A DNA stretch of 32,819 bases from Nitrospirota bacterium. GTDB taxonomy: Bacteria; Nitrospirota; Thermodesulfovibrionia; Thermodesulfovibrionales; JdFR-85. The notes under the pieces are model-generated. The model was not told the DNA's origin, searched no databases, and was given only the letters and a program-made list of their open reading frames with translations. The stretch is taken from positions 1 to 32,819 of the forward strand of contig WFMM01000070.1 of NCBI GenBank assembly GCA_015484595.1, in the 5' to 3' direction. Below are positions 17,608 to 23,543 of this stretch, piece by piece (the first letter of the stretch is position 1; each line of letters starts with the position of its first letter). Made by a program: the position numbers and the translations under genes.

Positions 17608-20028
17608 ATGAATCTTCTCCGTTTTCAGAGACCAAGCAGGTACATAAACAGAGAGGTAAACTCCTTCCACGCAGATTCCCGGCTCAGGGTTGCTCTTGCC
17701 TTCCCTGACACCTACGAGGTGGGCATGTCCCATCTTGGTATGAAGATCCTCTATCACATAATCAACTCAACAGGCTTTGCCCACGCAGAGAGGGTATTTG
17801 CCCCCTGGGATGACCTCTACAGATACATGAATGAAGAGGGCCTGATACTTTGTAGTCTTGAAAGCCAGAGACCCCTTAAGGACTTTCACATTGTGGGGTT
17901 TTCTCTTCAATACGAGCTTTCCTACACCACCGTGCTTGGCATGTTGAAAACAGGTGGAATTCCTTTAAGAAGTGAGGACCGCGACGAAAGCTCTCCTCTG
18001 GTCATTGCCGGTGGACCCTGCACGGTTAACCCATTGCCGATGAGTGATTTTATTGATGCCTTTTTCGTGGGTGATGCAGAGGAGGTGCTCCCCGGGTTTC
18101 TTATTAGGCTAAGAGATCTTATTTTAAGTGGTGAAAAAAGGGATGTCCTGCTTGAAGAGATCGCAGGAATTCCTGGTTTTTATGTGCCTTCTTTTTCAAA
18201 GAAACCTGTAAAAAGGGTTTTCGTCAGGGACTTAGACAGTGCACCCTTTCCGGTATCGCCTGTGGTGCCCTATACCCAGATAGTGCACGACAGGGTCAAT
18301 ATTGAGATATCAAGGGGATGCACCAGGGGGTGTCGGTTCTGTCAGGCAGGGATTATCTACAGACCCCTGAGGGAGCGTTCACCAAGAAGGGTGCTTGCCC
18401 TGGTTGAGGAGTCCATAAAAAACACGGGCTACGATGAGGTGTCCTTTACATCGCTGAGTGCAGGTGACTACAGCATGCTACCCGAGCTCCTTCGGGCTTT
18501 TAATCAGAGGTTTTCTGAAAAAAGGATCTCCCTTTCTCTACCTTCTCTCAGAGTTGGTGCCGTTACAAGGGAAATCCTCAGAGAGATAAGAAGTGTAAAG
18601 AAAAGTGGCTTTACAATAGCTCCCGAGGCTGGCACTGACAGGCTCAGAGCAGTGATAAACAAGGACTTCAGCATGGAGGATTTTCAAAGGGCTGTGGACC
18701 TTCTATTTTCTGAGGGCTGGTTAAACCTGAAGCTTTACTTCATGGCTGGCCTTCCTACCGAGACAGATGAGGACATTGAGGGGATTGTCGAGATGGCTTT
18801 GCTTGCAAGAAAGATTGCAAGAAAATATGCCAAGAAGAAGGCAAACATAACGGTCAGTCTCTCGCCCTTTGTGCCAAAACCACACACTCCCTTTCAATGG
18901 CTTGGTCAGTGCAGAGAAGGAGTTATTAAGGAGAGGATTGAATACATAAAAAAGAGCCTTGGCAGGGGAATAACCTTTAAAAGCCATAACCTAAAAATGA
19001 GCCTCCTTGAGGCAGCCCTTTCAAGGGGTGACCGCTCAGCAGGTAAGGTCCTGGAGGAGGCTACTGCACTGGGTGCCTATCTTGATGGCTGGTCTGAGCT
19101 GTTTGATTATGAGCTATGGCAAAAGGCAATGGACAGGGCATCTGTTGACCTTGAGGAGATGGCACTTAGGTCCTATAACATGGATGCCCCCCTGCCGTGG
19201 GATGTGATAGACACGGGTGTAAAAAAGGAGTTTCTAAAAAGGGAATATCAGAGGGCAGTTTCGGCCAGTTGGTCTGGTGACTGTAGCTTCAGTAGCTGCC
19301 TTGCCTGTGGGATTGGCTGTAAGAGTGGAGAGTTCCTTACAAAGGAGTCCCCTTTGAGGGTAGACCACCTCAGGGGTGAACAGAGGCGGCAGTTTTCTCC
19401 TGTTATGGTGAGGGTCTGTTTTGAAAAAAGCGGAGTTCTGAGATACCTTTCACATCTTGAGCTCGTTCAGGCACTTTTAAGAGGACTGAGGAGGGCAGGG
19501 GTAAGTCTCGTTTACTCACAGGGATTCCACCCTGCTCCAAAGGTATCCTTTGGCCCGCCACTTAATGTGGGAGTTTCCGGAAGGAGGGAGTTTTTTGACA
19601 TGCATGTATATCCGCCCTTTGACATAAAGGCAATGAAGGACAGGATAAATGCTGTCCTGCCAGAGGGCATAAAGGTAAAAGAGATGCGATTTGTCCACAG
19701 AAAACTCCCATCTTTAAGCAGCTTTATCTCAAGATACTCCTACAGGGTAGGCCTTGGAAGTGAGTCAAAGACGAGACTTGGCCTGCTTGGCAGTGAGTTT
19801 AGTGATTTGGTGGAGAAATTTGATATAATTGGAGAGAAAGAGGTCCTGCTGATTTTGAGAGATCGCAAAGACCGAAAGGTAAAGCTTTCTGATATCTTAA
19901 AGGGACTTTTTGGTAAGGGGATAGAAGATCTGGAGGTCGAAAGAATCGGGCTTTATGGTTACCTGAAGGGCTGGCTTGACCCGATGGAACTGATTGACAG
20001 GGCCTCCTTTGGCTTTGATGGAAAGTGA
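17608..20028 (+). CDS. Radical SAM protein fused to a DUF2344 (radical SAM-linked) domain
   Basis: The 806-aa protein joins three parts. Residues ~1-215 resemble a cobalamin-binding-like N-terminal region (VALAFPDTYEVGMSHLG, VGFSLQYELSYTTVLGML, IAGGPCTVNPLPMSDFIDAFFVGDAEE). Residues ~230-480 are a radical SAM core with CTRGCRFC giving the CxxxCxxC cluster motif. Residues ~590-800 are the DUF2344/TIGR03936 domain (SGVLRYLSHLELVQALLRGLRRAG, YSQGFHPAPKVSFGPPL). Between them lies a cysteine group (CSFSSCLACGIGC) that might hold another cluster. The fusion matches TIGR03960 plus TIGR03936. Its substrate is unknown; it overlaps the RNase G gene by 11 bp, a widely conserved pairing that suggests an RNA- or ribosome-linked role. 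Confidence 0.93.
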   Translation: MNLLRFQRPSRYINREVNSFHADSRLRVALAFPDTYEVGMSHLGMKILYHIINSTGFAHAERVFAPWDDLYRYMNEEGLILCSLESQRPLKDFHIVGFSLQYELSYTTVLGMLKTGGIPLRSEDRDESSPLVIAGGPCTVNPLPMSDFIDAFFVGDAEEVLPGFLIRLRDLILSGEKRDVLLEEIAGIPGFYVPSFSKKPVKRVFVRDLDSAPFPVSPVVPYTQIVHDRVNIEISRGCTRGCRFCQAGIIYRPLRERSPRRVLALVEESIKNTGYDEVSFTSLSAGDYSMLPELLRAFNQRFSEKRISLSLPSLRVGAVTREILREIRSVKKSGFTIAPEAGTDRLRAVINKDFSMEDFQRAVDLLFSEGWLNLKLYFMAGLPTETDEDIEGIVEMALLARKIARKYAKKKANITVSLSPFVPKPHTPFQWLGQCREGVIKERIEYIKKSLGRGITFKSHNLKMSLLEAALSRGDRSAGKVLEEATALGAYLDGWSELFDYELWQKAMDRASVDLEEMALRSYNMDAPLPWDVIDTGVKKEFLKREYQRAVSASWSGDCSFSSCLACGIGCKSGEFLTKESPLRVDHLRGEQRRQFSPVMVRVCFEKSGVLRYLSHLELVQALLRGLRRAGVSLVYSQGFHPAPKVSFGPPLNVGVSGRREFFDMHVYPPFDIKAMKDRINAVLPEGIKVKEMRFVHRKLPSLSSFISRYSYRVGLGSESKTRLGLLGSEFSDLVEKFDIIGEKEVLLILRDRKDRKVKLSDILKGLFGKGIEDLEVERIGLYGYLKGWLDPMELIDRASFGFDGK

Positions 20029-21514
20029 GATTTTAATAAATGTAACCTTTGAAGAGGTAAGAGTAGGTCTTGTCGAGGGTGGTCAGCTTGTAGAACTTTA
20101 TGTTGAGAGGGAAAAAGAGGCATCCCTGGTAGGAAACATTTACAAGGGAAAGGTGCTGAAAGTGCTACCCGGGATGCAGTCTGCCTTTGTGGATATAGGG
20201 CTTGAAAAGGCCGCCTTTCTTTATGTTGCTGATGTAAAGGCTGACCTTGAGTCCTATGCTCCATTCCTTGACGAAGAGGAACAGCTGGAGCTCACATCTA
20301 TAAGACCCCGCAATGACATCCCCATTGAGGACCTGATAAGGGAAGGACAGGAGCTCCTGGTTCAGGTCTCCAAGGACCCGCTGGGAACAAAAGGTGCAAG
20401 GGTGACCTCCTATGTGACCATTCCAGGACGATACCTGGTGCTTATGCCAGGACTTGACCATGTGGGTATATCCCGCAGGATAACCAATGATGAGGAAAGA
20501 AGCCGGCTGAAAGCGCTGGTTGACAGCTTTAGGCCGCAGGGGCACGGTCTGATAGTGAGAACTGCTGCTGAGGGTGCACAGGAAGAGGAGCTCCGACAGG
20601 ACCTTGAGTTTCTGCTTCTTTTGTGGAAGGACATTCAGGAGAAGAACCAGCGGTGTTCAGCTCCGATGATGCTTTACAGTGATTTTGACCTGGTTTTAAG
20701 GAGTGTCAGGGATATGATGAGTCAGGATGTGGAAAGGGTGGTGATAGACTCTCAGAAGGAGTTTCAGAGGCTGAAGGAGTTTGTAAACACCTACTTCAGT
20801 AAGTTAAGCGACAAGATAGAGCTTTACCAGAGTAACGAGCCACTCTTTGAGGCCTATGGTGTTGAGCCTGACATTGCAAGGGCCCTTGGCAGGAAGGTCT
20901 GGCTTAAGTCAGGTGGATATATCGTGATTGACCAGACCGAAGCCATGACAGTAATAGATGTAAACACTGGAAAGTTTGTTGGTAAGGAGAATCTTGAAAA
21001 CACCATCCTTCAGACCAACCTTGAGGCAGTAAAGGAGATTGCCTATCAGATAAGACTGAGAAACCTGGGTGGAATAATAATCGTGGATTTCATTGACATG
21101 GAACTTCAGGAAAACAGAGACAGGGTGTTCAATGCCTTTAAAGAGGCAATGAAAAGGGATAAGGCCAAAAACACCATCTTTAATATCTCAGAGCTTGGCC
21201 TTATACAGATGACCCGCAAGAGGGTTCGGGAGAGCCTTGGAAGAAAGCTCTGCGAGGTCTGCCCGTACTGCGATGGTAAGGGATTTGTGCTTTCTGCAAG
21301 AACCATCTGCTTTGAGATATTCCGAAAGCTGCAGAAGATAACTGCTCCAAAGGGGACAAAGGTAATCATTACTGCCCATCCAGAGGTGGCTGAATTGCTT
21401 AGTGACGAAAAAAGCTACATCATTGAGACCCTTGAGAGGACCAAGGGAATAGAGATAATCATAAAGGAAAACAAAAACATCCATCAGGAAAACTACAGTA
21501 TAACCGTGTTGTAG
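20018..21514 (+). CDS. rng: Ribonuclease G (RNase E/G family)
   Basis: RNase G cuts single-stranded AU-rich RNA and matures the 5' end of 16S rRNA. The protein (498 aa from this start) contains the S1-like part (GNIYKGKVLKVLPGMQSAFVDIGLEKAAFL), the catalytic region with IDVNTG and IVDFIDM carrying the metal-binding aspartates, and the zinc-link CPYCDGKG. The long C-terminal scaffold of RNase E is missing. I chose ATG 20018 because MESEILINVT matches the family N-terminus; a TTG at 19994 is also in frame. It overlaps the radical SAM gene. The rplU-rpmA genes that often follow are absent here. Confidence 0.94.
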   Translation: MESEILINVTFEEVRVGLVEGGQLVELYVEREKEASLVGNIYKGKVLKVLPGMQSAFVDIGLEKAAFLYVADVKADLESYAPFLDEEEQLELTSIRPRNDIPIEDLIREGQELLVQVSKDPLGTKGARVTSYVTIPGRYLVLMPGLDHVGISRRITNDEERSRLKALVDSFRPQGHGLIVRTAAEGAQEEELRQDLEFLLLLWKDIQEKNQRCSAPMMLYSDFDLVLRSVRDMMSQDVERVVIDSQKEFQRLKEFVNTYFSKLSDKIELYQSNEPLFEAYGVEPDIARALGRKVWLKSGGYIVIDQTEAMTVIDVNTGKFVGKENLENTILQTNLEAVKEIAYQIRLRNLGGIIIVDFIDMELQENRDRVFNAFKEAMKRDKAKNTIFNISELGLIQMTRKRVRESLGRKLCEVCPYCDGKGFVLSARTICFEIFRKLQKITAPKGTKVIITAHPEVAELLSDEKSYIIETLERTKGIEIIIKENKNIHQENYSITVL

Positions 21515-21561: not shown

Positions 21562-22368
21562 ATGCAGGATATAAAGGATAAGTATCGCAGGCTTATACAG
21601 ATAATTAAAGATGCTGGTTCAGCAGTGGTTGCCTTCTCTGGAGGTGTGGACAGCACCCTCCTTGTAAAGGCTTCAATTCAAAGCGGTATCAGATACCTTG
21701 CCGTAACAGGTCTTTCTCCGACCCTTCCAAAAAAAGACATCGAGGATGTAAAGAGGCTTAAGGCACTCCTTGGCATTAACCACAGGTTTGTAAAGACCGA
21801 TGAGCACAAAAGGAAAGAGTTTATCAGAAACGACTCGATGAGGTGCTATTTCTGTAAGGATACACTCTTTAAAAAACTCCTGGAAATAGCCAGAGCTGAG
21901 GGGTATCAGACCGTTTTAGAGGGGACGAATATTGATGACCTTAAAGATTACAGGCCAGGCATAAGGGCCTGTAAGTCCCACGGGGTGCTGAGTCCACTTG
22001 CAGAGGCAGGGATAACCAAATCCGATGTCAGGGAGCTACTAAAGGGCTTTGGTATCTGGCTCTGGAATAAGCCGTCATCACCTTGCCTTTCTTCAAGGAT
22101 TGCCTATGGAGTGGCCATTCAGGAAGAACTGTTAAGACAGGTTGAGGCTGCTGAGGAGCTTTTAAGAGAGCTTGGTTTCAGGGAGTTCAGGGTCAGACAT
22201 CACGGTGACATCGCAAGGATAGAGGTCTCTTTAGATGAGATGGAACTCTTTTTTAAAGACCAAATAAGACAGAGGGTCGTGGAGGAGCTACTCAGGATTG
22301 GCTATAAATTCGTTACCCTTGACCTTGAAGGTCTGATAAGTGGGAAGATGAACAGGCTTATAGGATGA
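21562..22368 (+). CDS. larE: LarE-type ATP-pyrophosphatase sulfur transferase
   Basis: LarE adds sulfur to the nicotinic-acid-derived precursor of the nickel-pincer cofactor used by lactate racemase and related enzymes. The PP-loop SGGVDS is at residues 26-31. Three cysteines stand out: Cys95 and Cys98 (RCYFCK) and Cys175 (PSSPCLSSRI). Cys175 aligns with the single sacrificial cysteine of Lactobacillus LarE; the extra CxxC is the pattern of LarE proteins that hold a [4Fe-4S] cluster and can act catalytically. Length (268 aa) is typical. The ribosome site is poor (AAGG abutting the ATG). No larA, larB or larC is in the window, so the target enzyme is unknown. Confidence 0.88.
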   Translation: MQDIKDKYRRLIQIIKDAGSAVVAFSGGVDSTLLVKASIQSGIRYLAVTGLSPTLPKKDIEDVKRLKALLGINHRFVKTDEHKRKEFIRNDSMRCYFCKDTLFKKLLEIARAEGYQTVLEGTNIDDLKDYRPGIRACKSHGVLSPLAEAGITKSDVRELLKGFGIWLWNKPSSPCLSSRIAYGVAIQEELLRQVEAAEELLRELGFREFRVRHHGDIARIEVSLDEMELFFKDQIRQRVVEELLRIGYKFVTLDLEGLISGKMNRLIG

Positions 22369-23543
22369 ACGAAAGAGAATGGTTAAAAACTAACCTTGCC
22401 ATCTGTGCCCTCTGTGGAAGGTGTAAAAAGGACTGTCCCACCTACCTTGCTGAGCATAACGAATCCCGTAGCCCAAGGGGAAGAATGCTGCTTCTTTATG
22501 AGGCAGCACTAAAGGAAGAGCTCATTGACCAGGCACTGATAGAAAGGGTCTATAGCTGCCTTGTCTGTGGGGCCTGTGAGGGAATATGTCCATCAGGGGT
22601 GGATGTGCTTAAGGCAATACTTATTGGCCGAGCCTATCTTAAAGGGCACGACAGAAAGGGAAGGCTCTTAAGAAGACTCATGGCAGCAGGCACGAAAAGG
22701 CCCATACTAAGTTACCGATTGCTTTCAGTCTTTAAAGACCTTCTTAATCCTCTGCTCGTAAAAAAGGGCCTTATTCACAGGGGACTTGAGCTTGACATGC
22801 CACCTCTTCAGACCGTTGATACCGTGTTTTCTCCAGAAGGTCGCAGGAAGGGAAGGGTGGTGCTCTTTACGGGTTGCTCGGTGAGGTTTTTATATCCCTA
22901 TCTCGGACAGTCCTTTATATCGGTTATGAACAGCCTTGGCTTTGAGGTGGTGTTACAGAGGAAGGAATACTGCTGTGGTGCACCGCTTCTTGGCCTTGGG
23001 ATGATTAAGGAGACCGAGAGACTTGCTCAGAGAAATCTGGAGTCCTTTGAAAGGCTAAAGGCAGATGCCATTGTATCCCTCTGTCCAACCTGCGTAACCG
23101 TGACAGGGGGCATTTACAGAAGGCTCTTTGGTGACGCCCTTGAAATGATGGTCTTTGATGACTTTATTAAAGACCTTATCGGTGAAAAACAAAAGGCAGG
23201 GCTTGACAGCAGTGTCTTTTATCATCCTCCCTGCCATATGAAGAACTACCGTGGTTGTGATTCAGCCATAGGTCTTATTGAGCTATCAGGGATGGTGTTG
23301 AGGGGGCAGTCAGAGGGGTGTTGTGGTCACGCAGGCACATATTCGTTGAGGTTTAAAGAGCGCTCTTTGCAGATGCTTCAGAAAAGGGTCAGTGAGTTTG
23401 AAAGCTCAGAGGCTGATGTGCTGGTGACTTCCTGCCCTGGCTGTATGTTTCAGCTTTCAAAGATGATTGATCACCCGCGAGTCATACATACTGTTGAAAT
23501 AGTTGAGGAGATGCTTGAGATAAAGGGAAAAGAAACGGATTAG
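22365..23543 (+). CDS. GlcF-like iron-sulfur oxidoreductase subunit
   Basis: The 392-aa protein has two N-terminal [4Fe-4S] ferredoxin motifs (CALCGRCKKDCP at residues ~14-25 and CLVCGACEGICP at ~66-77) and two CCG domains (EYCCGAP near 200, then PPCHMKN...EGCCG near 290-320, and CPGC near 355). This is the make-up of the Fe-S subunit of glycolate or D-lactate oxidase (GlcF/LldE-like) and of HdrD-like proteins. It normally works with an FAD subunit (GlcD) that is not in the window. The ATG overlaps the larE stop by ATGA, indicating coupling. Confidence 0.85.
   Translation: MNEREWLKTNLAICALCGRCKKDCPTYLAEHNESRSPRGRMLLLYEAALKEELIDQALIERVYSCLVCGACEGICPSGVDVLKAILIGRAYLKGHDRKGRLLRRLMAAGTKRPILSYRLLSVFKDLLNPLLVKKGLIHRGLELDMPPLQTVDTVFSPEGRRKGRVVLFTGCSVRFLYPYLGQSFISVMNSLGFEVVLQRKEYCCGAPLLGLGMIKETERLAQRNLESFERLKADAIVSLCPTCVTVTGGIYRRLFGDALEMMVFDDFIKDLIGEKQKAGLDSSVFYHPPCHMKNYRGCDSAIGLIELSGMVLRGQSEGCCGHAGTYSLRFKERSLQMLQKRVSEFESSEADVLVTSCPGCMFQLSKMIDHPRVIHTVEIVEEMLEIKGKETD

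Follow-up and report, generated by a model that had tools for sequence, protein, structure and literature searches.

Contig C70 of a Nitrospirota genome (2.11 Mb in 170 contigs, 96.4% complete) was analysed over its whole 32,819 nucleotides, referred to here as the window. It carries a larE gene whose stop codon overlaps the start codon of a gene for a GlcF-like Fe-S protein, and the locus raises the question of whether the two proteins work together or only lie together. The genes follow one another on the same strand in the order radical SAM fusion gene, RNase G, larE and GlcF-like gene, with these features:

17608..20028, + strand: TIGR03960/TIGR03936 B12-binding radical SAM fusion gene (650.7 and 140.9 bits, above cut-offs)
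19994..21514, + strand: RNase G (Rne/Rng family) gene, directly 5' of larE (TIGR00757, 546.9 bits, above cut-off)
21562..22368, + strand: larE, three-cysteine type (TIGR00268, 298 bits, cut-off 150)
21637..21654, + strand: LarE PP-loop SGGVDS, residues 26-31 (motif reading)
21844..21855, + strand: LarE CxxC, Cys95 and Cys98, predicted [4Fe-4S] ligands (invariant in 55/55 aligned LarE)
22084..22086, + strand: LarE Cys175, predicted third cluster ligand (invariant in 55/55; one residue past the L. plantarum cysteine)
22365..22368, no strand: ATGA, stop/start overlap of larE and the GlcF-like gene (sequence)
22365..23543, + strand: GlcF/GlpC-like Fe-S protein gene, two CCG domains (profile matches and motifs)
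22404..22436, + strand: first ferredoxin motif CxxCxxCxxxC of the GlcF-like protein, residues 14-24 (motif)
22557..22589, + strand: second ferredoxin motif CxxCxxCxxxC of the GlcF-like protein, residues 65-75 (motif)
22971..22979, + strand: CCG core of the first cysteine-rich domain of the GlcF-like protein, residues 203-205 (domain match and motif)
23319..23327, + strand: CCG core of the second cysteine-rich domain of the GlcF-like protein, residues 319-321 (domain match and motif)

Both open reading frames and their ATGA overlap had been proposed in an earlier sequence-only reading and are borne out, as is its remark that larA, larB, larC and glcD are not among the neighbours; larB, larC and glcD are present on other contigs. 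The equivalog score of the RNase G was 569.9, slightly below the cut-off of 594.

LarE matched TIGR00268 at full length (residues 7-264 of 268) and above the curated cut-off, and has the PP-loop SGGxDS, the phosphate-binding arginines and the CxxC-C motif in a genome that also holds LarB and LarC. It contains four cysteines, at positions 95, 98, 137 and 175. Cys95, Cys98 and Cys175 were unchanged in all 55 aligned LarE of the order, the window included, as were the constant residues of the SGGxDS loop and the two arginines Arg210 and Arg212, and position 137 was cysteine in 3/55, so that the label "three-cysteine" given at first sight is right for the conserved set. The alignment covers 55 of the 57 LarE places in the order, L086 and L094 being left out for want of a separate LarE frame. 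In a pairwise alignment the third cysteine falls one residue after the L. plantarum LarE cysteine (Cys176), a shift described for the [4Fe-4S] LarE of Thermotoga maritima, with which the LarE of the window also shares the PP-loop, the CxxC-C ligands and the phosphate-binding arginines (PMC9283937). It differs in having no fourth cysteine beside the third, and its genome has no Lar_N domain whereas a control search found one in T. maritima. The same paper reports CxxC-C in most of the LarE sequences compared, so the LarE of the window is of the common type (PMC9283937). By motif it is of the [4Fe-4S] type, in agreement with the suggestion from the letters alone that it is a cluster-bearing and not a single-use LarE.

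The genome encodes the rest of nickel-pincer nucleotide (NPN) synthesis. LarB lies on contig C53 (278 bits, cut-off 175) and LarC on contig C151, with both its parts above cut-off (LarC1 204, cut-off 90; LarC2 141, cut-off 50). A profile search of the genome contigs found no Lar_N, the domain of LarA. The sequence-only reading had let its proposal stand or fall with larA, larB and larC elsewhere in the genome; LarB and LarC are there and LarA is not. A missed LarA is possible in a genome of 170 contigs and 96% completeness, but hardly in 59 genomes: Lar_N was present in 2/61 genomes of the order and absent from 59/61. Among the same 61 genomes LarE was found in 53, LarC in 55 and LarB, scored as present only above its cut-off, in 54. 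The LarE count treats matches weaker than E 1e-5 (G014, G015) as absent and becomes 55/61 at E 0.001, and the LarC count takes in two genomes (G002, G043) with a C-terminal LarC piece only, which were counted as present in the pairwise tables. LarB, LarC and LarE were all present in 48/61 genomes, 46 of them without Lar_N. In 14 control genomes LarC was found in six, just two of which had Lar_N. The lactate racemase system as defined by LarA is thus lacking from this genome and nearly all of its order. Such a state is already known in kind, since about 15% of the genomes analysed in one study have larB, larE and larC without larA (PMC11796402). The genome of the window resembles these in its complete NPN synthesis without LarA, and differs in belonging to an order where this holds for most of the sampled genomes (46/61) and where one genus lacks all three genes.

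The neighbourhoods of 21 LarB and 20 LarC genes indicated no NPN user (21 LarC loci were considered, one of which, L176, was left out with the gene missed). LarB was preceded by gpsA, identified by eye, in 14/21 contexts, and the largest gene cluster around LarC had at most six members in the 20 contexts. Just 3' of the larC of this genome lies a TusA-like sulfur-carrier gene (L102:8418-8666; 52.5 bits, cut-off 78). It was considered as a lead to sulfur delivery and rejected, as it did not cluster with genes of the other LarC contexts. The larB gene is tail-to-tail with genes that by eye resemble hypF and hypD of nickel hydrogenase maturation (L130:5505-9666). Among the matches listed for recent literature on the nickel-pincer nucleotide or LarB/LarC/LarE, no title or abstract opening names an NPN enzyme other than LarA, and for LarC2 with LarB and LarE the titles and abstracts gave Lactobacillus casei work only. 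In a Haloferax review the assignment of this function to members of the LarB, LarC and LarE families is qualified as "possibly" (PMC8305020).

Adjacency of larE and the GlcF-like gene is not peculiar to the genome in which it was noticed. The pair was adjacent in 40 of the 53 LarE genomes of the order (this one included), in 10/13 families, always with the GlcF-like gene 3' and on the same strand, within 215 bases except for one gap of 1.0 kb. RNase G lies directly 5' of LarE in 39/40 pairs, all but L058. In 36/40 the radical SAM gene lies 5' of RNase G; in three of the others LarE is near the end of a contig or stretch. This gene order is retained across 10 families at 42-67% LarE identity, which exceeds what neutral drift usually leaves, so some shared regulation of the two genes may exist. 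The arrangement is confined to the order as far as the sample reaches. Of 138 genomes sampled across the phylum, 100 have LarE and 50 have the GlcF-like gene, counted here and throughout only at E <= 1e-40; inside the order the pair was adjacent in 24/29 LarE genomes, many of which overlap the 61-genome set, and outside it in 0/71, with two genomes at a distance of about 5.3 kb. Fourteen of these 71 have a GlcF-like match elsewhere, a number that may miss distant GlcF homologues beyond E 1e-40. No title or abstract opening was found that joins LarE with GlcF. In family f5 (L061, L065, L069) the slot 3' of LarE that the GlcF-like gene has in other families is occupied by a gene for an FAD protein of 522-560 residues, NadB-like (L-aspartate oxidase) by eye. 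NPN is made from nicotinic acid adenine dinucleotide, so this neighbour could be meaningful.

The GlcF-like protein has the ferredoxin motif CxxCxxCxxxC at residues 14 and 65 and CCG at 203 and 319, with matches to Fer4_8 and two CCG domains, and in this succession of two ferredoxin motifs and two CCG domains it is like the GlcF/GlpC/LdhH dicluster CCG proteins. COG0247 includes GlcF. The scores of the GlcF-like protein place it within the GlcF/GlpC/LdhH group but under every equivalog cut-off: 144.6 of 333 for GlcF (NF008434), 141.9 of 278 for GlpC and 163.4 of 800 for LdhH. The search for a glcD that it could serve found one, a single stand-alone gene on contig C75 (FAD-oxidase_C at C75:6927-7643) that matches TIGR00387 over its whole length with 437 bits, below the cut-off of 568. 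Like proteins of the GlcF/GlpC/LdhH type, the GlcF-like gene is present in one copy and is co-distributed with GlcD; unlike them, it scores below cut-off and lies on a different contig from its GlcD. The separation is common in the order. In 16/18 GlcD contexts (L143, in which there was no GlcD frame, is left out), this genome included, no GlcF-type gene with E < 1e-20 to the protein of the window was found within four genes of GlcD, some of these contexts ending at contig ends, and GlcD lies 3' of smc, identified by eye, in 10/18. Both the lone GlcD and the lone GlcF-like gene are explained by a dehydrogenase whose genes lie at two loci. Most likely the single GlcD of the genome is such a 2-hydroxyacid dehydrogenase with split genes, and the GlcF-like protein is its Fe-S subunit for electron transfer.

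Which genes are lost together was informative on the relation between the two halves of the pair. When the 56 genomes of at least 90% completeness are compared, the GlcF-like gene tracks GlcD (49 genomes with both; 2 and 1 with the GlcF-like gene or GlcD alone, namely G033 and G058, and G006; 4 with neither; Fisher p=0.0002) and not LarE (47 with both, 4 and 5 with the GlcF-like gene or LarE alone, 0 with neither; p=1), and LarE follows LarC (p=4e-5) and LarB (p=1e-4). For all 61 genomes the values are p=0.002 for the GlcF-like gene with GlcD and p=0.06 with LarE (48/5/5/3), the three genomes with neither the GlcF-like gene nor LarE being 78-84% complete. These p-values treat genomes as independent and ignore kinship. 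All four genomes examined from genus g16 are without LarC, LarE and an above-cut-off LarB, and all four retain the operon as radical SAM, RNase G, GlcF-like gene, a cysteine-rich protein and transaldolase, the last two identified by eye; in the phylum-wide sample 8/8 g16 genomes have the GlcF-like gene and no LarE. In a further genome, 75% complete (G013), RNase G adjoins the GlcF-like gene and LarE is missing with LarB and LarC present. The reverse loss is seen in four genomes of 95-100% completeness (G022, G034, G035, G044), in which LarE is present and GlcD and the GlcF-like gene are both missing, and in six others (G008, G010, G020, G032, G043, G052) the GlcF-like gene is elsewhere and LarE is still with RNase G. 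The four genomes without GlcD and GlcF-like gene belong to two families (two of one genus in f7, two genera in f8) and the four without LarB, LarC and LarE to one genus. The argument therefore rests on about two to four independent losses, and the LarE-LarC-LarB figures on one. The GlcF-like gene and LarE have been lost independently of each other, which suggests that the pair shares a location and not a job.

The explanation that we prefer, at a probability of roughly 0.7, is that a cluster-type LarE acts in a complete NPN pathway with a user other than LarA, that the GlcF-like protein belongs, as its displaced Fe-S subunit, to a GlcD dehydrogenase with split genes, and that the adjacency of the two genes is inherited. 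It draws on gene content, motifs, synteny and co-distribution as observed in these genomes; the chemistry we infer from studied relatives of LarB, LarE, LarC and the GlcD-GlcF proteins. LarE, with ATP, would activate the pyridinium dicarboxylate made by LarB and insert a sulfide borne on the open iron of its [4Fe-4S] cluster, after which LarC would insert nickel to give NPN, to be used in this order by an enzyme other than LarA. The GlcF-like protein would pass on electrons for the stand-alone GlcD flavoprotein. The two genes would be adjacent because both belong to an old operon, inherited through the order and in many relatives running radical SAM, RNase G, LarE, GlcF-like gene, transaldolase-like gene, and not through mutual need; the pair is probably best read as an inherited operon with genes of two processes.

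With the pair seen in most relatives, a functional link between LarE and the GlcF-like protein was considered, and then rejected on the g16 contexts and the co-distribution counts. In this reading, NPN supply is coupled to 2-hydroxyacid oxidation, for example by an NPN racemase that converts L- to D-lactate for oxidation by GlcD and the GlcF-like protein. The frequent adjacency and the ATGA overlap speak for it, and COG0247 is a recurrent neighbour, in 4/25 LarA-homologue groups, in known LarA systems (PMC7583248). The lack of LarA in this genome and 59/61, the persistence of the GlcF-like gene where LarB, LarC and LarE are lost, its absence together with GlcD where LarE persists, and the 0/71 adjacent pairs outside the order, 14 of those genomes with a match elsewhere at the same E limit, make it unlikely. 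The link between lactate isomerisation and 2-hydroxyacid oxidation drawn in the sequence-only reading is accordingly not supported.

It is less probable still that LarE inserts sulfur into a substrate other than the NPN precursor and that no NPN is made. Such a role would account for the absence of LarA, but the strict TIGR00268 match, the invariant Arg210, Arg212 and CxxC-C, and the presence of LarB and LarC, lost jointly with LarE in g16, argue against it. We consider it very doubtful that the GlcF-like protein serves LarE directly by bringing electrons or sulfide to its cluster, as the translational overlap and the proximity of two Fe-S proteins, one of them a sulfur insertase, might suggest: the sulfide of T. 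maritima LarE comes from a cysteine desulfurase acting on cysteine (PMC11796402), the adjacent gene is missing in the 71 LarE genomes outside the order, and in the order itself LarE occurs without a GlcF-like gene in five genomes of at least 90% completeness. Least credible is that the NPN-using enzyme is the GlcF-like protein together with GlcD, with the nickel cofactor accepting hydride next to the Fe-S clusters. Besides RNase G and radical SAM no neighbour of LarE is more regular in this NPN-making order free of LarA, but g16 retains the GlcF-like gene in place without LarB, LarC and LarE, other genomes keep LarE without it, and the ferredoxin and CCG motifs of the protein are ordinary.

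The preferred explanation, inherited adjacency with an NPN user other than LarA, leads to the question of what such a user could be. In six genomes (G002, G005, G007, G010, G011, G043) a different LarE was seen, the sole LarE found in G007 and G011. It is followed by LarB in 6/6 and then by a CO dehydrogenase (CooS) gene in 5/6, the sixth contig ending; the one CO dehydrogenase scored gave 500.7 bits to TIGR01702 (cut-off 478). The cassette LarE, LarB, CooS, NuoF-like lies at L095, L096 and L098-L101 (G011, G007, G002, G043, G005, G010), and in the four loci with enough contig it has 5' of it a gene that we call c27, a DUF2267 gene and a LarC2-only piece of 168-172 residues. There c27 has 590 residues (shortened by a contig end in G043) and is preceded by a membrane-type protein in three. 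Leaving paralogues aside, the c27 proteins of different genera and families in the phylum sample share 77-94% identity, which suggests horizontal transfer. The genome of the window has no c27, and c27 or a paralogue was found in 10/395 genomes of the phylum.

The family extends well beyond this phylum. By record titles, 69 loci (L214:3521-5290 and L215-L282) belong to Nitrospirota, Nitrospinota, Chloroflexi, Proteobacteria, Firmicutes and single records of other groups. In 51 of the 66 loci counted (L262, L266 and L270 were dropped, having no scored c27 frame) genes of lar biosynthesis, named by best BLAST match within our reference set, lie within 6 kb: LarC2-only proteins of fewer than 215 residues at 41, LarB at 24, LarE at 19 and longer LarC at 18. 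LarB or LarE is near c27 in 26/66, part of the loci form one cluster with LarC, LarE and LarB, and 15/66 have no lar gene, some of them on short contigs. Twenty-six genomes were chosen from the 69 loci for a Lar_N search, and 18 of them, including Mesorhizobium, Sinorhizobium, Paracoccus thiocyanatus and a Thiobacillus MAG, gave no Lar_N at E <= 0.001. The other 8/26 have Lar_N, so c27 and LarA can coexist. In some Firmicutes a gene that is LarA-like by eye lies within the c27 locus (L256:1960-3240; cluster h15, loci such as L261, L264, L267, L275 and L280), and the two are thus not strict alternatives. Two paralogues of c27 (L159 and L160, 41% and 39% identical) adjoin genes that look by eye like thermosome-like chaperonins.

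Pfam matches were found for 0 of the 41 c27 family members tested, and no NCBIfam match was useful. The AlphaFold2 model of c27 is confident (mean pLDDT 90, pTM 0.91). Foldseek gave 0/130 matches to solved structures at E <= 0.001, and the best VIA-align match, with Z 6.0 to a designed helical protein, was not a clear one; these results do not establish that the fold is new, nor that it differs from every known fold. Searched against solved structures, the c27 profile gave two weak matches, one to a designed repeat protein and one, covering part of the profile, to a short uncharacterised protein; both were taken as chance. The invariant residues include His179, His232, His331, Lys113, Lys136, Lys140 and Lys290. 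By its gene neighbourhood c27 is a candidate non-LarA NPN enzyme; alternatively, it may act in maturation or as a partner protein. Our tentative view, held at a little under even odds, is that NPN is used by at least one family unrelated to LarA, for which c27, an undescribed protein of about 590 residues, is the candidate, and that the order of the window then uses yet another NPN enzyme.

The pair of LarE and GlcF-like genes is itself ordinary once its history is seen. What lies behind it is an order in which a rare nickel cofactor is made without LarA, the only known user of NPN, and in which one genus is devoid of the whole pathway, so that the question of what else uses NPN is answerable by subtraction. 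For other phyla, rhizobia included, c27 is a concrete candidate for NPN use, and together with the gene-loss pattern of the order it makes the question of which enzyme uses NPN a testable one.
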